Positions 27,018 to 39,437 of a DNA stretch of 64,000 nt are shown here, piece after piece (position 1 is the stretch's first letter; each line of letters starts with the position of its first letter). Location of the stretch: positions 62,001 through 126,000 of the forward strand of contig NZ_JANHLK010000011.1 in assembly GCF_028682635.1 (NCBI RefSeq), in the 5' to 3' direction. This DNA comes from Pseudomonas putida. Lineage in GTDB: Bacteria > Pseudomonadota > Gammaproteobacteria > Pseudomonadales > Pseudomonadaceae. The position numbers were made by a program, and so were the translations under genes. The notes under the pieces are model-generated. The model had not been told where the DNA came from, ran no database searches, and saw nothing but the letters and a program-made list of their open reading frames with translations.

Positions 27018-27179
27018 GAACAAACTCACTGGCTGAATATCCCTTTCCTACACGCGTGCCGGAAGCGTCCGATTTACGCCTGACTGCCTCGTATAGAACC
27101 CTTGCGCTGCACTTTGCCCTGCCTTCATTCCTTCGGAGGCAGGCGCAATTTGATCGTCATCAGACAAGGAGTTGCAGCC

Positions 27180-28643
27180 ATGGCCAAGGGATATTTCATT
27201 CGCAAGGGCGACAAGACCAGTTGCGGTGGCGAGGTGCTGGAAACCGATACCCGCATCATGATGTTCGGCTTCGCCCATGCTCGCGAGGGGGATCCGGTTT
27301 CCTGTGGCAAGAACGACGAAACCTACAAGATTGTCGGTGGTATTTCGTCCTTTGACAGTCACGGTAGGCTGGCAGCTGGTTCGCTGGATAGCCGCAGCAG
27401 CTGTCCCTGCAAGGCCGGGCTTAACCCCTCGTTTACCAACATCAGCTATGAGTCCATACAGGGTGCAGCGCCGCAAGCCGTGAGGAGCGACCCTCAACAG
27501 GAAGCCGCGCCGGTTGCGCCCAACAACCCGGTCACACCGCAACCATCCAGTTTCACTTCAGCGCGGGCACCCACACCCACGCTCAGCGAACGGCCGGGGA
27601 CAGTCTGTGAAAACCTTTGGCGCGGGTATCAGCAAAGGGTCGAAAACGTCGTGGCGCCGGGCGGCAAACTGATCGCCGATCCGAAGACGCGCAACAAGGC
27701 GATCAATGCCGCCTACGCGCAATTGTGGCGCCTCGATCCACGATTTCAGTGGGCAGGGCTGGCGGCCTTCGCCTCGAAACAGGTGGGCTGTGGATTGCTG
27801 CACGCCGCCGAGACGATCGAGAAGATGCAAGCGGAAGAGCAGGCGATACAGCAACTGAGGGACAGTGCCAGACAAGGATTCGGAGGCTTGTTCAGCCGCA
27901 GCGAGTGGGAAAAGCGCGCGAAAATTCGCGAGTTCGAGCAGCGCCAGCACGAGTACGAACAGGCCAACCGTGACAACCCGGTGTGGGGCTTCACCCACTG
28001 GGGTGCCGACATGCCCTTGACGTACTCGCAACGGATGTACAGATTTGTGTACGAGATGTTGGCCATGGGAAATACCACGCTGTTTTTGGATGTGTATCCG
28101 TTGCATGTGTTCTACAGGGAACGTGGGCTGGAGGCGCTGAAGGATTGTCTGCCTTCACGGAAAAACATCTATGGGAGTGGGCAGTATCCGGTGCTGTGGC
28201 CGGTCGGCGAGAAAACACTGAAGTTCGGGATTGACCACAAGGAAATCCTGCTAGCCTTTGAGGCGATAGAAGCGGGCAACATCGCCAAAAGCGTTGAACA
28301 TTTGGCTTGGCACGAACAACAAAATATTCTGCAACCAGCGATGTACAACGACTGGCGATTCAGCTCATTGCTGTACAGCAATCATCTTTCCTACCTGAGC
28401 AGTATCCCGTCTGGCGCCGCCGAAGCCATCGAACTGACGTTGGCCAGTCAATGCCGCCGTATCGACGATGGACGTACCGTTGGTTTCAGCAACAGCCTCA
28501 CTGCCAACCTGGCCGATATCAATCAGCGCATGCCCTTCGTGCTCAGAGCCGCAGATCAGTTTGATGATCTATTACGCAGCAACCAGCGCGGGCAGATTGA
28601 GCAGTCGATTAGGGATATCGCCTGGGGTGGAGGCGTGCGATGA
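27180..28643 (+). CDS. PAAR-domain protein with DUF2515-like C-terminal domain, candidate T6SS effector
   Basis: A 487-residue protein starting at the ATG at 27180, behind AAGGAG. Residues 1-85 look like a PAAR spike-tip domain (MAKGYFIRKGDKTSCGGEVL, GDPVSC, CPCKAG). A Pro/Ala-rich linker covers about 95-140. The C-terminal 345 residues resemble DUF2515 from memory: TRNKAINAAYAQLWRLDPRF, FASKQVG, MLAMGNTTLFLDVYPLHVFY and EHLAWHEQQNILQPAMYND. No catalytic motif of a known toxin class is visible. Base composition turns more AT-rich in the 28000-28500 part, as often in transferred toxin domains. The stop overlaps the next gene's start by four bases, as expected of an effector followed by its immunity gene. 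No other T6SS genes are in the window. Confidence 0.8.
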   Translation: MAKGYFIRKGDKTSCGGEVLETDTRIMMFGFAHAREGDPVSCGKNDETYKIVGGISSFDSHGRLAAGSLDSRSSCPCKAGLNPSFTNISYESIQGAAPQAVRSDPQQEAAPVAPNNPVTPQPSSFTSARAPTPTLSERPGTVCENLWRGYQQRVENVVAPGGKLIADPKTRNKAINAAYAQLWRLDPRFQWAGLAAFASKQVGCGLLHAAETIEKMQAEEQAIQQLRDSARQGFGGLFSRSEWEKRAKIREFEQRQHEYEQANRDNPVWGFTHWGADMPLTYSQRMYRFVYEMLAMGNTTLFLDVYPLHVFYRERGLEALKDCLPSRKNIYGSGQYPVLWPVGEKTLKFGIDHKEILLAFEAIEAGNIAKSVEHLAWHEQQNILQPAMYNDWRFSSLLYSNHLSYLSSIPSGAAEAIELTLASQCRRIDDGRTVGFSNSLTANLADINQRMPFVLRAADQFDDLLRSNQRGQIEQSIRDIAWGGGVR

Positions 28644-29254
28644 GCCTGTTGCAACGCGTGGGCTGGCGTCGTGGTGCGTTGGCACTGGCGGTCGCGGCCC
28701 TCCTGACATTGGCAGCGATTGAGGCCCTCTCGGATGAGCCGGAAATTGCCCTGTTGATTGGCGAACCTTGGGAGGATATGCGCCGTCGCTCCAGTGCGGC
28801 CATTGATCCAGCCATTCCCGGACACTATTGGGGGCGGCAGGCCAAGTCTGATGCTCGCCTGCGCTTCGCAGACCCTCAATACGGCTTTGTGACCCCATTG
28901 GCCCGTTTCTTTACCGTGAGTTTCGATGATGAGCGGGTCAGCAGTGTCCGCATGTCCCCACAAATCGAGCCGCTGCTGCTCGACGACACACTCAAGGTCG
29001 TGCTGGATCTACAGGAGCAATGGCGCAATGCTGGCTGGGTACCCATCAGGGTCAATGACTTCCCACCGTTCGCGGACATGCCGCATTGGCGTGCCCAATT
29101 ACGCGATGCAAACAAAGGCGGCACATCCTACTGGCATGCAGGCACCCAGTATCAGGTGATGATGGTGGTCAATCGTTTCACGGATTACAGGCACCCCACC
29201 GAGGAGCGTTACCTCATCACGCTGTCACTGGCCACGCCATGGACGAATCCCTGA
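28640..29254 (+). CDS. Membrane-anchored hypothetical protein, candidate immunity protein
   Basis: A 204-residue protein of no family I recognise. The ATG at 28640 overlaps the stop of the PAAR protein (ATGA), so the two are translationally coupled. One N-terminal hydrophobic segment (GALALAVAALLTLAAIEAL) suggests a signal anchor with about 175 residues exported to the periplasm. The exported part has no Cys pair or known motif; it includes PEIALLIGEPWEDMRRRSS and YQVMMVVNRFTDYRHPTEERYLITLS. Location and coupling suggest it neutralises the PAAR-borne toxin; this is inference. If right, the toxin acts in the periplasm or at the membrane. Confidence 0.72.
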   Translation: MSLLQRVGWRRGALALAVAALLTLAAIEALSDEPEIALLIGEPWEDMRRRSSAAIDPAIPGHYWGRQAKSDARLRFADPQYGFVTPLARFFTVSFDDERVSSVRMSPQIEPLLLDDTLKVVLDLQEQWRNAGWVPIRVNDFPPFADMPHWRAQLRDANKGGTSYWHAGTQYQVMMVVNRFTDYRHPTEERYLITLSLATPWTNP

Positions 29255-29373: not shown

Positions 29374-29997
29374 GTGCCCAGCATCTACCAGATCAAACCC
29401 GCGTTCCAAAACCTCCTGCGCCCCCTGGTCCAGCGCCTGTTCGACAACGGCACCACCGCCAACCAGATCACCCTGATCGCGGGCATCGGCTCAATCCTTG
29501 TGGGCGCCGTGATCGCAGGCTTCGTGCATCACCCCTGGATCTTTGCACTGGTACCCATCTGGATGATCGTGCGCATGGCGCTCAACGCCATCGACGGCAT
29601 GCTGGCTCGGGAATTCAACCAGCAGTCGCGTTTGGGGGCGTATTTGAATGAGCTGTGCGACATCACTGCCGACTGCGCCCTGATCCTGCCGTTCGCCCTG
29701 CTGCCCGGCGTCAGCCTGTGGCTGGTGTTGCTGGTGGCGCTGCTCGCCTTGTTCAGCGAGTACAGCGGCGTGCTGGGGCCGATGGTCGGGGCTTCGCGGC
29801 GCTATGACGGGCCCATGGGCAAAAGTGACCGGGCGTTTGTCCTGGGGGTGGTGGCCGCTGGCATCGTACCGGGCTGGATCGGCGCGTTCTGGATCAACAC
29901 GGTGTTCGCGATCATCGCGATGCTGCTGGTTTATACCTTGATCAACCGGGTCCGCCAGGGCCTCAGGGAAGCACAAATTGACAGCTCTTCAGCCTAA
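29374..29997 (+). CDS. CDP-alcohol phosphatidyltransferase family protein (YnbA-like)
   Basis: Polytopic membrane enzyme of 207 residues expected to move a phosphatidyl group from CDP-diacylglycerol to an alcohol. The signature region is NAIDGMLAREFNQQSRLGAY then LNELCD. Compared with the canonical D-x2-DG-x2-AR-x8-G-x3-D-x3-D, the first and third Asp are Asn here. From memory E. coli YnbA carries the same changes and a similar start (YQIKPxFQxLLRP), so this is a subfamily trait. The GTG at 29374 is the start. It is the first gene of a six-gene run that also has YnbB-, YnbC- and YnbD-like members. Acceptor unknown. Confidence 0.88.
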   Translation: MPSIYQIKPAFQNLLRPLVQRLFDNGTTANQITLIAGIGSILVGAVIAGFVHHPWIFALVPIWMIVRMALNAIDGMLAREFNQQSRLGAYLNELCDITADCALILPFALLPGVSLWLVLLVALLALFSEYSGVLGPMVGASRRYDGPMGKSDRAFVLGVVAAGIVPGWIGAFWINTVFAIIAMLLVYTLINRVRQGLREAQIDSSSA

Positions 29998-30007
29998 GGA
30001 AATGGCA

Positions 30008-31762
30008 ATGCGCGAAGCACAACAACAGACATTCACCACCCACGATGACGTGCAACTGTTCTACCGACACTGGCCCGGCACCCCGGAACCTGGGGAGCCG
30101 CGCAAGGCCGTGCTGCTGTTTCACCGCGGCCACGAACACTCCGGGCGCATTGCCCATCTGGTGGATGAACTGGACCTGCCCGGTTTTGACTTCTTCGCCT
30201 GGGATGCCCGGGGCCATGGCCTCTCGCCGGGCGCCCGGGGCGACAGCCCCGGTTTTGCCACCAGCGTGCGGGACGTGCAGACTTTCTGTGAGCACCTGGG
30301 CGCGACCTATCAGATCGACGAAGAAAATATCGCGGTGATCGCGCAAAGCGTCGGCGCGGTGATCGTCGCCACGTGGGCCCACGATTACGCGCCGCGCATC
30401 CGAGCGCTGGTGCTGGCGTCGCCGGCGTTCAAGGTCAAGCTCTACGTGCCCTTCGCCCGCCAGGGGTTGGCGCTGATGCGCCGGTGGCGCGGCAATTTTT
30501 TCGTCAACAGCTACGTCAAGGCGCGCTTTCTCAGCCACGACCCGCAACGCGTCGCCAGCTACGACAGCGATCCGCTGATCACCAAGGCCATTTCAGTCAA
30601 TGTCCTGCTCGGTCTCTACGAGGCCGCCGGACGGGTCGTGGCCGATGCCCAGGCCATAACAATACCCACCCAGCTGTTGATCTCCGGTGCCGACTTCGTC
30701 GTGCATCGCCAACCTCAGGAACAGTTCTTCGAGCGCCTGGGCAGCCTGCGCAAGGAAAAACACATCCTGCCGGGGTTCTTCCACGACACCCTGGGCGAAA
30801 AGAACCGCGGGCACGCCGTCGCCAGCGCACGTCGCTTCATCCAGCAGAACTTCGCACAGCCGAGCGAACGCACCAGCCTGCTGAATGCCGATCGCCTGGG
30901 CCTGACCTGCGCCGAATCCGAATCACTGGCCGCGCCGCTGCCGCACAACTCACTGCGCGACCTGTATTGGCGCATGACCCGCGCCAGCATGCGCCTGGGC
31001 AGCCAACTGTCGTCCGGGATCAAGCTGGGGTTCGACACCGGCTTCGACTCCGGCAGCACCCTGGACTACGTCTACCGCAACACAGCCACGGGCAAGTCGG
31101 GTGTCGGCCGCCTGATCGACCGCAATTACCTCGATTCCATCGGCTGGCGCGGCATTCGCCAACGCAAGCTGCACGTCGAAGAACTGCTGCGCCTGGCGAT
31201 GCAGCAATTGCGCGACCAGGGCCGCGAAGTGCGCATCGTCGACATCGCCGCCGGCCACGGACGCTACATTCTCGAAGCCCTTCAGGGCGTCAGCCCGTTA
31301 CCCGAGTCGATCCTGTTGCGCGACTACAGCGACATCAACGTGCGCGACGGCAGCGCGCTGATCCGCGAGAAAGGCCTGGAAGGGATCGCACAATTCGTCA
31401 AGGGCGACGCCTTCGACCGTGCCGACCTGGCTGCGCTGCAACCCAAGCCGACCCTGGCGGTGGTCTCCGGTCTGTACGAGCTGTTCGCAGACAACCAGAT
31501 GGTCGCGGCTTCCCTAGCTGGCCTGGCCGAAGCCGTGGAGCCGGGCGGATACCTGGTCTATACCGGTCAACCCTGGCATCCGCAACTGGAACTGATCGCC
31601 CGCGCCTTGACCAGCCACCGTGAAGGCCAGGCCTGGGTCATGCGCCGGCGCACCCAGGTGGAAACGGACCAACGGGTGGAGGCCGCCGGTTTTCGCAAGG
31701 TCAGCATGCGCGTCGACGAGTGGGGCATTTTCAGCGTGGCTCTCGCGCAACGGGTGTCTTGA
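30008..31762 (+). CDS. Alpha/beta hydrolase-methyltransferase fusion (YnbC-like)
   Basis: A 584-residue two-domain protein. Residues 1-285 form a serine alpha/beta hydrolase of the monoacylglycerol-lipase type: LLFHRGHEHSGRIAHLVDEL near the oxyanion site, WDARGHGLSPG, and AQSVGAVIVATW around the nucleophile Ser. The C-terminal 240 residues hold a SAM-dependent methyltransferase fold (VRIVDIAAGHGRYILEAL, SILLRDYSDINVRDG, PTLAVVSGLYELFADN). I use the ATG at 30008, which has AAGGA seven bases upstream; an ATG at 30002 is too close to that site. E. coli YnbC has the same fusion, as I recall. The TGA overlaps the next gene's ATG. Substrate unknown, probably a lipid. Confidence 0.88.
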   Translation: MREAQQQTFTTHDDVQLFYRHWPGTPEPGEPRKAVLLFHRGHEHSGRIAHLVDELDLPGFDFFAWDARGHGLSPGARGDSPGFATSVRDVQTFCEHLGATYQIDEENIAVIAQSVGAVIVATWAHDYAPRIRALVLASPAFKVKLYVPFARQGLALMRRWRGNFFVNSYVKARFLSHDPQRVASYDSDPLITKAISVNVLLGLYEAAGRVVADAQAITIPTQLLISGADFVVHRQPQEQFFERLGSLRKEKHILPGFFHDTLGEKNRGHAVASARRFIQQNFAQPSERTSLLNADRLGLTCAESESLAAPLPHNSLRDLYWRMTRASMRLGSQLSSGIKLGFDTGFDSGSTLDYVYRNTATGKSGVGRLIDRNYLDSIGWRGIRQRKLHVEELLRLAMQQLRDQGREVRIVDIAAGHGRYILEALQGVSPLPESILLRDYSDINVRDGSALIREKGLEGIAQFVKGDAFDRADLAALQPKPTLAVVSGLYELFADNQMVAASLAGLAEAVEPGGYLVYTGQPWHPQLELIARALTSHREGQAWVMRRRTQVETDQRVEAAGFRKVSMRVDEWGIFSVALAQRVS

Positions 31763-33105
31763 TGCTGCGCAACACGACGACGACACGCGAACCCGGTTTG
31801 CTCAAACCTGCGCTGCTCTGGCTGCTGCTCCTGGCGCCGTTGTTCTTCGGCACCTACGGGTTTGCCACCTGGTTCACCACCCAGCGCGACGATGTCGGCA
31901 GCCTGGTATTCGGCTGGGAAAACCACATGCCGTTCTGGGCCTGGACCATCGTCCCCTACTGGTCCATCGACTTGCTGTACGGCCTATCCCTGCTGCTGCC
32001 CGACAGTCGCCAGGAACTCAAGCGCCACGCCTTGCGCCTGCTGACCGCGCAACTCATTGCGGTCAGCTGTTTCCTGATCTGGCCGTTGCGCTTCACCTTC
32101 GCCCGGCCGGAACTTGACGGCGTATTCGGCTGGCTGTTCGATGTCCTGGCAGGCTTTGACAAGCCATTCAATCAGGCGCCATCCCTGCACATCGCCTTGC
32201 TGGTGATCCTGTGGACTTGCTACCACCGGCACTTGCAGGGCCTCTGGCGCGGATTGATGCATGCCTGGTTCATCCTCATCGGGATCTCGGTGCTGACCAC
32301 TTACCAGCACCACTTCATCGATCTGCCGACCGGCGTGCTGCTTGGCTGGCTGTGTGTCTGGCTGTGGCCGCTGGAGCGACCTGGCCCTTTGCAGCGCGCC
32401 CGACTGGCAACCGGGCAAAAACGCTGGCAACTGGCGCTGTATTACCTGGTGGGGGCTGCTGCTTTTGCCGTCCCGGCCTTCAGCTTCGGGGGCATCTGGC
32501 TGTGGCTGACCTGGCCTGCATCGGCCTTGCTGCTGGTGGCGCTCAATTACGCCGTGCTGGGTGCAGAAGGTTTTCAGAAAGGCGCCGATGGACGCCTGTC
32601 CCCTGCCGCACGCTGGTTGATGGCGCCCTACCTGGCTGCCGCCTGGCTCAATTCGCGCCTGTGGACGCGCAACAATCCACTACCGGACCAGGTAATCGAT
32701 GACGTCTGGCTCGGACGCATACCGACTGGCCGGGAACTCAAGGGCAGCCCCTTCAGTGCCGTGTTCGACCTGTGTGCCGAACTGTCGCTCGATCCTGGCA
32801 GCGTCGCCTATCGCACGCTACCGGTGCTGGACTTGACCACCCCCACCCCCTTGCAATGCCAGGAAGCCGCGCTGGCCATCGAAAGCCTGCGCCAGCACGG
32901 GCCGCTACTGGTCTGCTGCGCCTTGGGCTATTCGCGCAGCGCCACCGCAGTCGCCGCCTGGCTGCTGCACACCGGGCGGGCCAGCAGTGTCGCCGAAGCC
33001 TTTTTGGTGATCCAGCGCGCACGCCCGGGGATTGTTCTGGGTCTCCTGCACCGAGAGGCGCTGGAGCCGCTGGCGACCAGCATGGAGAAGAAAGGTGTCC
33101 ATTGA
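31762..33105 (+). CDS. PAP2-type membrane phosphatase fused to dual-specificity phosphatase (YnbD-like)
   Basis: A 447-residue inner-membrane protein. The N-terminal 300 residues carry several membrane helices and a PAP2-like motif (APSLHIALLVIL, then TTYQHHFIDLPTGVLLG). The C-terminal part is a cytoplasmic dual-specificity phosphatase: DDVWLGRIPTGRELK, and the P-loop LLVCCALGYSRSATAVAAW gives C-x5-R, with Cys where the usual preceding His would be. The start overlaps the upstream stop (TGATG). E. coli YnbD has the same layout from memory. It probably removes phosphate from a lipid intermediate made by the neighbours. Confidence 0.87.
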   Translation: MLRNTTTTREPGLLKPALLWLLLLAPLFFGTYGFATWFTTQRDDVGSLVFGWENHMPFWAWTIVPYWSIDLLYGLSLLLPDSRQELKRHALRLLTAQLIAVSCFLIWPLRFTFARPELDGVFGWLFDVLAGFDKPFNQAPSLHIALLVILWTCYHRHLQGLWRGLMHAWFILIGISVLTTYQHHFIDLPTGVLLGWLCVWLWPLERPGPLQRARLATGQKRWQLALYYLVGAAAFAVPAFSFGGIWLWLTWPASALLLVALNYAVLGAEGFQKGADGRLSPAARWLMAPYLAAAWLNSRLWTRNNPLPDQVIDDVWLGRIPTGRELKGSPFSAVFDLCAELSLDPGSVAYRTLPVLDLTTPTPLQCQEAALAIESLRQHGPLLVCCALGYSRSATAVAAWLLHTGRASSVAEAFLVIQRARPGIVLGLLHREALEPLATSMEKKGVH

Positions 33106-33106
33106 T

Positions 33107-33550
33107 ATGCAACTGCAGGTGACAGCCAGTCTGTTGCGCCGTGGCGACTCCCTGGATCGATTGTCCAGCGGCCTCACCCTGCTCGGCGCCCTGCTCGGCC
33201 TGGGCCAGTACCTGATGCCCGGCCCGGGGTTGTGGAGCCTGGCCTGCAGCGGCGGACTACTGGTGCTCGGCCTGTGGCAAAAATACTGGGCACTGCGGGT
33301 AGCCTTCGACGCCGATCTGTTCCGCCATCTGGCCGACCGTGCCGAAGACTTGCCCCAGCGCACCCAAGACCTGGACCAGGCGCTGACGGCCCTGGGCCTG
33401 CAACCTGCCGAGCGCGGCGGCCGCCCCTGGAGCGAACGCATCGCCGGCGCCTTGAAACTGTTACGACGCCAGGCATTGCTGGTGGCGGCCCAACTGTTGT
33501 TGACCCTGGTGTTCATCCTGGCCAACCCCTGGCTGGCCTATGCCGAATAA
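33107..33550 (+). CDS. Small membrane protein of the lipid cluster, function unknown
   Basis: A 147-residue protein not recognised by family. Two hydrophobic stretches near the N-terminus (LSSGLTLLGALLGLGQYLM, GLWSLACSGGLLVLGLW) and one at the C-terminus (ALLVAAQLLLTLVFILANPWLA) suggest three membrane helices around a cytoplasmic loop of about 60 residues (DADLFRHLADRAEDLPQRTQDLDQ). The ATG at 33107 follows the phosphatase stop at once; a GTG at 33095 is an alternative. It ends nine bases before the acyltransferase gene. Its conserved slot suggests an accessory subunit. Confidence 0.75.
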   Translation: MQLQVTASLLRRGDSLDRLSSGLTLLGALLGLGQYLMPGPGLWSLACSGGLLVLGLWQKYWALRVAFDADLFRHLADRAEDLPQRTQDLDQALTALGLQPAERGGRPWSERIAGALKLLRRQALLVAAQLLLTLVFILANPWLAYAE

Positions 33551-33559
33551 GGAGCTCTC

Positions 33560-34180
33560 ATGCTGGAACCCGTGGTTGCCACCCTCATCACCTCGGCCGC
33601 GCGCCTGCTCACCGGAGCGCGCAGCCTTTGGCTCGGTTGTGCGCCGCAACCGGTACAGCGCATCTATTTCGCCAACCACAGCAGTCATGGCGATTTCGTC
33701 CTGCTGTGGGCCTCCCTGCCGCCGACCTTGCGCCGCATCACGCGACCGGTTGCCGGTGCGGATTACTGGCTCAAGAGCCCCCTGCGCCGGTACATTATCA
33801 ACCAGGTGTTCAACGGCGTGCTGATTGACCGCGAGCGCAAGGACAGTACCGACAATCCCTTGCAGCCGATGTTCGACGCCCTGGAGCGCGGCGATTCGCT
33901 GATCCTTTTTCCGGAAGGCACCCGCAATCCCGAAGACGGCCTATTGCCCTTCAAGAGCGGGCTGTATCACCTGGCAAAGCAGTATCCCCAGGCGCAGGTA
34001 ATCCCGGTGTGGATCGCCAACCTCAACCGCGTCATGCCCAAGGGTCGCGTGCTGCCACTGCCGCTGTTATGCACCATCAGCTTTGGTGCCGCGCTGGCCA
34101 TCGACGAAGACGAAAGCAAGGCGCAGTTCCTCGAACGCAGTCGCGAAGCGCTGCTGAGCCTGGCCGGGGAGCATGCCTGA
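33560..34180 (+). CDS. PlsC-type 1-acyl-sn-glycerol-3-phosphate acyltransferase family protein
   Basis: A 206-residue acyltransferase. The two core motifs are intact: NHSSHGD (NHx4D, catalytic His and Asp, about residue 39) and FPEGTRNPEDG (substrate binding, about 116). GVLIDRERKDSTDNP corresponds to the middle motif. An AAGGAG site precedes the ATG at 33560. The protein is smaller than the housekeeping PlsC and has little membrane anchoring. In context it could supply or remodel the acyl chains of the cluster's lipid product. Confidence 0.9.
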   Translation: MLEPVVATLITSAARLLTGARSLWLGCAPQPVQRIYFANHSSHGDFVLLWASLPPTLRRITRPVAGADYWLKSPLRRYIINQVFNGVLIDRERKDSTDNPLQPMFDALERGDSLILFPEGTRNPEDGLLPFKSGLYHLAKQYPQAQVIPVWIANLNRVMPKGRVLPLPLLCTISFGAALAIDEDESKAQFLERSREALLSLAGEHA

Positions 34181-34181
34181 C

Positions 34182-35114
34182 ATGGACAGACAGACCTTGA
34201 TGTTGTTCGCCGGGATTGGCGCGTTCCTGCTGCTGGCCTCGATCATCGGCCTGGTGCTCAAGCGCCGCACCCGCGGTACCGACAACCCGGTGATCGACAA
34301 CCTCAACGCGCGGATCAACGCCTGGTGGGTGATGGTGCTGGTGATCGGGGTCGCCTTCTGGCTCGGCACCGGCGCGGTGATCCTGCTGTTCTACACCGTG
34401 TCGTTCTACGCCCTGCGCGAATTCCTGACCCTCACGCCCACCCGCCGCAGCGACTACCCGGCATTGGTCGCGGCCTTCTACCTGGCGCTGCCGCTGCAGT
34501 ACCTGTTGATCTACTACGACTGGTACGGGCTGTTTTCGATCTTCATTCCGGTCTACGTGTTCTTGCTCCTGCCGATCCTCGCGTCCCTGGGCGGCGACAG
34601 CACGCACTTCCTCGAGCGCGCCTCGAAAGTCCAGTGGGGCCTGATGATCGCGGTGTTCTGCGTCTCCCATGTGCCCGCCCTGCTGACGTTGGACATCGTC
34701 GGGTATGAGGGACGAAACCTGCTGTTGATCGCCTATCTGGTGATCGTGGTGCAGATGTCGGATGTGCTGCAGTACGTGTGCGGCAAATTGTTCGGCAAAC
34801 GCAAGATCGCCCCGAACCTGTCGCCCTCCAAGACCCTGGAAGGGTTTGTCGGCGGCATTGTCCTGGCCTCGCTGATCGGCTGTGCCTTGTGGTGGATCAC
34901 GCCGTTCACCCCCTGGCAGTCACTGGTCATCGCCCTGCTGATCAACTTGCTGGGGTTCGCCGGCGGCATCGTCATGTCGGCGATCAAGCGCGACCGTGGC
35001 GTCAAGGACTGGGGGCACATGATCGAAGGCCATGGCGGCATGCTCGATCGACTGGACTCGGTGTGCTTTGCGGCGCCGATCTTCTTCCATCTGGTGCGCT
35101 ATGGCTGGACTTGA
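34182..35114 (+). CDS. Phosphatidate cytidylyltransferase, CdsA family (YnbB-like)
   Basis: A 310-residue multi-span membrane enzyme making CDP-diacylglycerol from phosphatidate and CTP. The CDS family signature is present near the C-terminus as SAIKRDRGVKDWGHMIEGHG followed by GMLDRLDS. Upstream, DVLQYVCGKLFGKRKIAPNLSPSKTLEGFVGG is the other conserved block. The ATG at 34182 is ten bases after GGGGAG; an ATG at 34173 overlaps plsC and is too close to that site. This is probably a second, dedicated CdsA feeding the YnbA-like enzyme. A terminator follows. Confidence 0.9.
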   Translation: MDRQTLMLFAGIGAFLLLASIIGLVLKRRTRGTDNPVIDNLNARINAWWVMVLVIGVAFWLGTGAVILLFYTVSFYALREFLTLTPTRRSDYPALVAAFYLALPLQYLLIYYDWYGLFSIFIPVYVFLLLPILASLGGDSTHFLERASKVQWGLMIAVFCVSHVPALLTLDIVGYEGRNLLLIAYLVIVVQMSDVLQYVCGKLFGKRKIAPNLSPSKTLEGFVGGIVLASLIGCALWWITPFTPWQSLVIALLINLLGFAGGIVMSAIKRDRGVKDWGHMIEGHGGMLDRLDSVCFAAPIFFHLVRYGWT

Positions 35115-35134: not shown

Positions 35135-35164
35135 AAAAAAGGGCGCCTGATGGCGCCCTTTTTC
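35135..35164. terminator. Bidirectional terminator between the lipid cluster and ibpA
   Basis: AAAAAAGGGCGCC - TGAT - GGCGCCCTTTTT is a self-complementary stem with A-tract and T-tract on either side. It serves both converging genes. Confidence 0.92.
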
Positions 35165-38920: not shown

Positions 38921-38996
38921 TGGCGTCCCCTAGGGGACTCGAACCCCTGTTACCGCCGTGAAAGGGCGGTGTCCTAGGCCACTAGACGAAGGGGAC
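38921..38996 (-). tRNA. tRNA-Glu (TTC), copy 1
   Basis: A 76-base cloverleaf GTCCCCTTCGTCTAGTGG with TTC anticodon in CCTTTCACG, and encoded CCA. Appears identical to the copy at 39207-39282. It is the last gene of the four-tRNA operon. Confidence 0.97.
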
Positions 38997-39077
38997 ACAA
39001 ACCCTTCTATACAACTGATCAGTGCTGAGAGCTGATCGATTCAAGGCCGGTGTGGCCAGACCTTGAACTTGTAAAAT

Positions 39078-39153
39078 TGGTGGAGCTAAGCGGGATCGAA
39101 CCGCTGACCTCCTGCATGCCATGCAGGCGCTCTCCCAGCTGAGCTATAGCCCC
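39078..39153 (-). tRNA. tRNA-Ala (GGC), copy 1
   Basis: A 76-base cloverleaf GGGGCTATAGCTCAGCTGGG with GGC in ATGGCAT, and encoded CCA. The anticodon stem is CCTGC/GCAGG and the T stem is AGCGG/CCGCT. It differs from copy 2 at paired positions only in those stems. Confidence 0.97.
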
Positions 39154-39206
39154 GGATTTTTCGCCTCGCGGCGGAACGACATCTTGCAACATCGTTTCTG
39201 TAAAAC

Positions 39207-39282
39207 TGGCGTCCCCTAGGGGACTCGAACCCCTGTTACCGCCGTGAAAGGGCGGTGTCCTAGGCCACTAGACGAAGGGGAC
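39207..39282 (-). tRNA. tRNA-Glu (TTC), copy 2
   Basis: Same sequence as the gene at 38921-38996, with TTC anticodon and encoded CCA. The Glu-Ala unit is tandemly duplicated with a period of about 285 bases. Confidence 0.97.
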
Positions 39283-39361
39283 GCAAACCCTTCTATACAA
39301 CAGATCAACGCTGAGTGCTGATCGCTTCAAGGCCGGTGTGGCCAGACCTTGAAGTGTAAAT

Positions 39362-39437
<76 letters not shown>

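Follow-up and report, generated by a model that had tools for sequence, protein, structure and literature searches.

The ynb gene cluster of a Pseudomonas putida contig and the variant active site of its CDP-alcohol phosphotransferase-like protein YnbA

The ynb cluster of the window

The window, i.e., the whole stretch of 64,000 nucleotides of Pseudomonas putida DNA analysed here (contig NZ_JANHLK010000011.1, assembly GCF_028682635.1), carries six intact open reading frames (ORFs) on the + strand between positions 29374 and 35114, which form a cluster related to the ynbABCD operon of Escherichia coli. Its most interesting point, absent from the preliminary description of this DNA, is that the product of the first gene, YnbA, is a conserved putative transferase with an N-D-N-D signature (Asn at two of the four metal-binding Asp positions), for which a dedicated PlsC and CdsA are usually encoded alongside. 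The genes are arranged in the order A-C-D-X-PlsC-B. The ynbA gene (29374-29997, GTG start) encodes a member of the PF01066 family (CDP-OH_P_transf, E 1.3e-7, above cut-off), ynbC (30008-31762, ATG start, with an alternative at 30002) a fusion of an alpha/beta hydrolase (Pfam domain Hydrolase_4) with a class I methyltransferase (Methyltransf_20), and ynbD (31762-33105) a PAP2 membrane domain fused to a dual-specificity phosphatase (DSP) domain (DSPc in Pfam). They are followed by the gene for X, a small helical membrane protein of 147 amino acids (33107-33550), a gene for a PlsC-type lysophospholipid acyltransferase (33560-34180; PF01553 Acyltransferase, E 1.4e-17) and ynbB (34173-35114), encoding a paralogue of the CdsA-type CTP:phosphatidate cytidylyltransferases (PF01148 CTP_transf_1, E 1.6e-73). 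Gaps of 10 bp, 1 nt and 9 bp separate ynbA from ynbC, ynbD from X and X from the plsC-type gene, respectively; ynbC and ynbD overlap by 1 nt and the last two genes by 8 nt. The six tightly packed, co-directional genes with named domains listed in the preliminary description are thus all present and confirmed by Pfam, in which X matches no family.

That description had also proposed that the cluster serves lipid head groups, is related to ynbABCD and includes a dedicated CdsA. This holds; four of the genes have orthologues in E. coli K-12 with 39-57% identity. The K-12 orthologues of YnbA, YnbB, YnbC and YnbD (46, 39, 57 and 42% identity, respectively) are adjacent (b1408-b1411) and stand in the order A-B-C-D, without PlsC and X, unlike the order found in the window. 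Elsewhere in the P. putida genome, we identified one further CdsA-type gene (two in total), nine further PlsC-type matches (10 in total) and three further CDP-alcohol transferases (four in total), one of them PgsA-like (L001; L and G numbers denote loci and genomes, respectively). The parts of the openly licensed literature covered by our searches yielded no description of the ynb product, of the six-gene pathway or of the association with PlsC. These sources mention BglJ-RcsB as an activator of ynbA (cited in PMC12871917), and one cyclic di-GMP sorting screen lists an insertion in this gene (PMC13031359).

Active site and fold of YnbA

Class I CDP-alcohol phosphotransferases share the signature D1xxD2GxxAR...GxxxD3xxxD4, whose eight residues have been described as absolutely conserved (PMC4634129). 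In the phosphatidylinositol-phosphate synthase (PIPS) of Mycobacterium tuberculosis, the four Asp residues are reported to hold two metal ions, D1, D2 and D3 being ligands of Mg-1, D3 being able to bridge and D4 being the presumed base (PMC6506517). We found Asn at both D1 and D3 in all of the 102 YnbA sequences compared, 84 of which come from Pseudomonas (79 named loci, the window and L024-L027). In the window, these residues are Asn71 (codon AAC, 29584-29586, + strand) and Asn92 (codon AAT, 29647-29649, + strand). The remaining six signature residues are kept: D2, D4, G and A are invariant (102/102), as are the cytosine-site residues, including N30 and T33, and the Arg is present in 100/102 sequences. 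The N-D-N-D signature recurs in a set of 15 more diverse YnbA proteins and in YnbA of E. coli K-12.

A sister group of enzymes likewise has Asn at D1 and D3 (8/8), with the AR of the signature replaced by AV or AI. Its loci are L173-L179 and L213-L220, and one member (L215) escapes detection by PF01066. The canonical relatives that we recovered read D-D-D-D in 58 rows, which correspond to 56 distinct proteins (L199 is identical to L003, and L193 to L184). In three further rows, which read M/A-D-D-D, a register shift of the regular expression hides the canonical signature, and one H-D-E-D row is an antisense ORF; seven rows were not matched by the regular expression since their AR is AV or AI, and these proved to be N-D-N-D. 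Because D1 and D3 are Asn in 102/102 sequences, we file YnbA outside the canonical members; judged by its sequence, it is a fold relative with a variant site and not a canonical CDP-alcohol phosphotransferase. The YnbA proteins and the sister group thus make up an enzyme clade that departs from a signature reported to be invariant, and no description of such an Asn variant was found in the portions of the openly licensed literature that we searched.

The AlphaFold2 model of YnbA (predicted local distance difference test, pLDDT, 86) has as its best PDB match the phosphatidylinositol phosphate (PIP) synthase 5d91 (Z 21.0, root-mean-square deviation 2.4 Å, 194 residues). PIP synthases score between Z 18.8 and 21.0, AF2299 scores 17.4 and a phosphatidylglycerophosphate (PGP) synthase 11.2. 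The top NCBIfam matches of YnbA are the archaetidylinositol-phosphate synthase (E 1.3e-19) and PIP synthase (E 3.1e-11) families, both below cut-off (70.8 bits for NF040950, with a cut-off of 180, and 43.3 bits for NF045883, with a cut-off of 170), and the same two families lead for 7/7 relatives. YnbA and the actinobacterial PIPS (Renibacterium salmoninarum 5d91/5d92 and M. tuberculosis 6h59) share the fold, the cytosine site, D2, D4 and a pair of Arg residues. In PIPS, this pair (R155 and R195 in the M. tuberculosis enzyme) is reported to bind the acceptor phosphate, and its loss to cripple the enzyme (PMC4634129). The aligned residues of YnbA, Arg153 (codon 29830-29832, + strand) and Arg192 (codon 29947-29949, + strand), are invariant in 102/102 sequences. 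YnbA differs from PIPS, besides the Asn at D1 and D3, in the inositol pocket, where the contacts S132 and K135 are replaced by Gly (G132 in 101/102 sequences, G135 in 29/29 from Pseudomonas).

The inositol-1-phosphate synthase family (PF01658) was detected in none of 199 Pseudomonas genomes; six of 14 control genomes were positive, E. coli not among them. On this count we rejected endogenous inositol phosphate as the acceptor in Pseudomonas, unless it is imported or made otherwise. Because the PIPS-like fold and the Arg pair are kept and the inositol contacts and PF01658 are missing, the acceptor of YnbA probably carries a phosphate yet is not an inositol phosphate made by the cell, which would narrow it to some other phosphorylated molecule. 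No consistent head-group synthase was seen beside ynb at the seven loci listed, among the chosen neighbours that were run against Pfam. SnoaL/DUF4440-like genes (NTF2 fold) adjoin three distant ynb loci (L121, 10025-10621; L123, 10260-10898; L125, 7230-7769), and another (L225, 3733-4350) lies near a stand-alone YnbD-like PAP2 gene. At L125, an A-B-C ynb locus is followed by a phospholipid methyltransferase gene (PEMT, PF04191, 6643-7263), which overlaps the SnoaL-like gene behind YnbC.

Partner proteins and distribution of ynb loci

PlsC retains HX4D (H40 and D45 in 92/93 sequences) and FPEGTR, the motifs of PlsC/LPLAT acyltransferases, and the residues of KR-x4-KD and GHGG-x2-DR-x-DS, the CdsA signature, are invariant in YnbB (98/98). 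Both genes adjoin YnbA in the three intact loci without YnbC and YnbD (3/3) and the sister enzyme in eight of eight loci (L213-L220). These 11 intact N-D-N-D loci without YnbC were scored in stretches of 16 kb, with ORFs called mechanically, as in all loci compared. Within 1.5 kb, YnbB was present at 10/10 of the loci tested and PlsC at 7/10, versus no gene of either type at 41 canonical CDP-alcohol phosphotransferase loci, mostly PgsA-like. Neither gene was found in the same 1.5-kb test at 10 of 21 N-D-N-D loci, all with YnbC beside YnbA. Since PlsC and YnbB flank 11/11 of the YnbC-less loci and 0/41 canonical ones, the N-D-N-D signature can be linked to a private supply of CDP-diacylglycerol (CDP-DAG): the signature change and this supply tend to go together. 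E. coli YnbB is reported not to replace CdsA (PMC6362211).

Of the 511 relatives found in a scan of genome contigs, we retained the best 80, which are all from Pseudomonas. In 77 of these 80 nearest loci, the six genes are all present and arranged as in the window, and this, together with the E. coli orthologues, places the cluster far from a chance grouping. Two of the remaining three (L053 and L082) meet a contig end and one (L119) has only C-D-X within 17.7 kb; the closest YnbC among these best 80 is that of P. umsongensis (94%). The methyltransferase domain of YnbC was detected in 111/199 Pseudomonas genomes (one weakly), in 16/369 gammaproteobacterial genomes (13 above cut-off) and in 17/299 genomes of the phylum. 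Outside of Pseudomonas, the six-gene form occurs in the same order at eight loci (L028-L031, L033, L035, L037 and L039), with the last two genes swapped at L120 and with YnbA reversed on a Shinella plasmid. In the gene tally, double counting affects X at 12 loci and YnbB at a single locus. In Pseudomonas, the ynb operon usually takes this six-gene form, which is probably not, as had been supposed, an expansion.

Among 200 genomes, apparently the first 200 of the 299 from the phylum, full-length YnbD, X and YnbC are present in the same 10, all of which also encode YnbA. YnbA itself is found in 14: these 10, three with YnbA, PlsC and YnbB alone, and one with a broken remnant. By this co-occurrence, YnbC, YnbD and X behave as a single block, without which YnbA, PlsC and YnbB can occur. 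The 10 genomes sharing X, YnbC, YnbD and YnbA also exclude the possibility, named in the preliminary description as one that would undo its proposal, that the genes do not co-occur elsewhere. The remnant (L212) is a broken ynbA/ynbB pair with an in-frame stop in a gammaproteobacterial genome of 1.9 Mb, and is a recent loss. Matches to the chromosomal ynb operon were obtained in 4,579 of 5,426 E. coli genomes, 4,242 of them at a coverage of at least 80%. Two enterobacterial plasmids (NZ_CP053574.1 and NZ_CP027341.1) carry genes for YnbA, YnbB, PlsC and YnbC, to which the Citrobacter copy adds YnbD and an X-like gene; their order, A-B-PlsC-C-D-X, is unlike that of the window. NZ_CP027341.1 (L228), from E. 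coli, is of the IncK2/Z type and is classed as conjugative; it carries a truncated ynbD, beyond which lie IS66-family genes.

In a tree of 50 rows, whose bootstrap values are rough and in which some canonical rows are long-branched, the YnbA group comprises 19 rows (support 97/96) and the sister group eight (100/100), both on one side of a branch with support 93/92. PlsC lies beside YnbB in both branches of the YnbA group and is missing in five of the eight rows of the E. coli branch. On the most parsimonious view, the original core consists of PlsC, YnbB and the transferase, and E. coli K-12, like a small number of others, has lost PlsC. The E. coli ynbABCD operon looks reduced, since PlsC and YnbB adjoin the transferase in 3/3 and 8/8 of the simpler loci and enterobacterial plasmids carry ynb with PlsC; the same counts make it probably wrong that PlsC was added to an operon of the E. 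coli type, as previously suggested. The losses of PlsC must have been repeated, because six other loci (L034, L036, L038, L121, L123 and L125) also lack it. A Pseudomonas locus with YnbA, PlsC and YnbB alone (L209) nests in the tree among six-gene Pseudomonas loci, which points to a probable loss of YnbC, YnbD and X at this locus.

YnbC retains the hydrolase serine motif A-Q-S-V/F-G as well as D230 and H260 (8/8), and a glycine-rich motif of the S-adenosylmethionine type is present. A PADLOC search for defence genes gave one weak match, of the methyltransferase part of YnbC to mads_2 (E 1.2e-6), and tblastn with YnbC found no phage record. We rejected a defence system and read the mads_2 match as generic methyltransferase similarity. 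In YnbD, the residues S141, H143, H184 and D187, together with C386(x5)R392, are invariant (14/14). The PSLH and QHH..D motifs of its PAP2 half are conserved and PAP2_3 matches with E 1e-4, below cut-off; PSLH and HH..D are motifs of AUR1/IPC-synthase-like PAP2_3 transferases, which the PAP2 half may resemble. None of the 60 PDB matches listed, of 165, covers the PAP2 region. The DSP domain matches the mitochondrial phosphatase PTPMT1 (3rgo) with E 6.3e-11, and other DSPs score better. The transmembrane (TM)-DSP half of YnbD is shared with DSP-diacylglycerol kinase fusions (PRK12361; NF009025, E 2.9e-20, below cut-off), which have a lipid kinase where YnbD has PAP2. Such fusions (L221-L224) were found in 4/4 genomes checked (G142, G158, G182 and G015), which are without a YnbC match, and this shared half suggests, by analogy, that YnbD acts on lipid-phosphate substrates.

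X is ynb-specific: it occurs in exactly the 10 of 200 genomes with YnbC and full-length YnbD and in none of the other 190. Its AlphaFold2 model is helical (pLDDT 89), without a Foldseek match at E<=0.001 or a PDB sequence match. The best VIA-align rows (an axonemal protein, NINJ1 and BAR domains) reach Z 9.8, short of the roughly 13 advised for helical bundles, and give X no fold assignment. X is restricted to one branch of the YnbA tree (9/11 rows versus 0/8 in the other). The ynb genes of the Citrobacter plasmid end in a gene for a 136-amino acid protein weakly similar to X (E 9.8e-5 with a nine-protein set), so the tree may understate the age of X. A tblastn search of plasmids with X of the window found none and is too weak to show absence, because Shinella and Burkholderia plasmid copies carry a divergent X.

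A possible phospholipid pathway and its alternatives

From the gene content, the co-occurrence, the conserved catalytic residues, the predicted fold and the N-D-N-D signature, which are direct observations, we infer the pathway that follows, including each of its reactions and their order, the acceptor and the product. PlsC would complete phosphatidic acid, and YnbB would convert it into a private pool of CDP-DAG. YnbA, functioning with Asn at two of the four metal-binding Asp positions, would then move the phosphatidyl group onto a small phosphate-bearing acceptor that does not come from inositol-1-phosphate synthase. Since the acceptor would be phosphorylated, a phosphate would be left for removal by YnbD, whose DSP domain may strip the exposed group as in the PIP and PGP pathways; PIPs are reported to require a phosphatase, unidentified as of 2015 (PMC4634129). 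The PAP2 domain might work on the same lipid or on its by-product, YnbC could trim an acyl chain and methylate the product or a precursor, and X might hold the enzymes together in the membrane. A lipid pathway is likely in outline. We give about even chances to its specific form, a dedicated minor-phospholipid pathway with a phosphorylated acceptor, dephosphorylation by YnbD and an Asn-variant YnbA. The system can be reduced to a likely core, formed by PlsC, the CdsA paralogue and the N-D-N-D transferase, plus optional parts, and the chromosomal ynb operon is present in most sequenced E. coli.

Several observations weigh against this pathway. The two positions taken by Asn in YnbA, D1 and D3, bind metal in M. 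tuberculosis PIPS, so that N-D-N-D could mean an inactive YnbA. The identity of the acceptor cannot be read from sequence relatives, and anions of other kinds can also be bound by a conserved pair of Arg residues. YnbD is missing at four loci with YnbC (L032, L034, L121 and L125), and its step must therefore be dispensable or met elsewhere. Three loci with YnbA and YnbC (L034, L036 and L038) show no gene for PlsC or YnbB in the 15 kb retrieved, and PlsC is missing at L005 (E. coli), L121, L123 and L125; in the genome of L036 (G043), both genes are found at a different locus, that of a sister enzyme (L218). Finally, E. coli YnbD is reported not to have complemented mutants in PGP phosphatase or C55-PP phosphatase (PMC7413402), the former result arguing against PGP as its substrate.

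The loss of metal ligands lends itself to a different explanation, in which YnbA and the sister group would either be pseudoenzymes or act as altered hydrolases and the operon would serve the turnover or repair of damaged lipids, with the PAP2, DSP and hydrolase domains degrading them and PlsC and YnbB rebuilding them. Two of the four ligands are replaced throughout, the sister group has also lost the signature Arg, three hydrolytic domains are present in YnbC and YnbD, and some ynb loci with YnbC lack PlsC, three of them also YnbB. However, the complete invariance of D2, D4, G, A and the cytosine-site residues would be unusual for a dead enzyme, and the smallest intact loci keep the biosynthetic PlsC and YnbB without YnbC and YnbD (11/11). 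We consider this explanation unlikely. A further scheme, which strikes us as a little more doubtful still, would have YnbA condense CDP-DAG made by YnbB with a sugar-1-phosphate, i.e., N-acetylglucosamine-1-phosphate (GlcNAc-1-P), to a sugar-pyrophosphoryl-diacylglycerol (sugar-PP-DAG), giving a glycolipid similar to MPIase. With a phosphate instead of a hydroxyl as the nucleophile, there would be less need for a full two-metal site, and the two phosphate-binding Arg are retained in the acceptor site of YnbA. Over-expression of E. coli YnbB is reported to raise MPIase (PMC6362211), CdsA and YnbB have been proposed to make GlcNAc-PP-DAG from CDP-DAG and GlcNAc-1-P, and, in cells expressing Tam41p, loss of ynbB reportedly affected the accumulation of the precursor more strongly (PMC6362211; PMC10881803). 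Nevertheless, ynbB deletion is described as leaving MPIase not significantly changed (PMC6362211), and ynbB came up in a screen around phosphoglyceride-linked enterobacterial common antigen, for whose synthesis it is reported to be dispensable (PMC8609368). YnbA moreover retains D4, the proposed hydroxyl-activating base, and the scheme has no obvious place for YnbC and YnbD.

The combination of a CDP-alcohol phosphotransferase fold with a DSP related to PTPMT1, and the fact that glycerol-3-phosphate is a common metabolite, would also fit a redundant phosphatidylglycerol route, in which YnbA and YnbD would duplicate the PGP synthase and the PGP phosphatase, respectively. This route is highly improbable, the model of YnbA being far closer to PIP synthases than to the PGP synthase, YnbD having failed to complement the PGP-phosphatase mutant (PMC7413402) and the genome having a PgsA-like gene of its own. 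Returning to the dedicated phospholipid pathway, we suggest only tentatively, as a possibility short of an expectation, that the N-D-N-D enzymes (YnbA and the sister group) are active transferases with an undescribed metal chemistry, making an undescribed phospholipid, usually with their own PlsC and CdsA, in the bacteria that encode them, among which are roughly half of the Pseudomonas species and the majority of E. coli strains. If they are active, the two-metal mechanism of phospholipid head-group transfer would need rethinking; if they are inactive, they would represent a conserved group of pseudoenzymes tied to lipid synthesis.

No sigma-70-like promoter was found between 28500 and 36000, where 1.5 would be expected by chance. 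A hairpin between A- and T-runs (35135-35163, + strand), read by eye and absent from the automated scan, lies between ynbB and a convergent Hsp20-like gene, and is probably a terminator shared by both. Just upstream of the cluster (27102-29254), a gene for a PAAR-DUF2515 protein (PF05488, PF10720) is followed by an overlapping gene for a 204-amino acid protein without family, and the two look like a type VI secretion cargo gene and its partner. Further downstream, on the - strand (38921-39437), two alternating tRNA-Glu/tRNA-Ala pairs lie in tandem.

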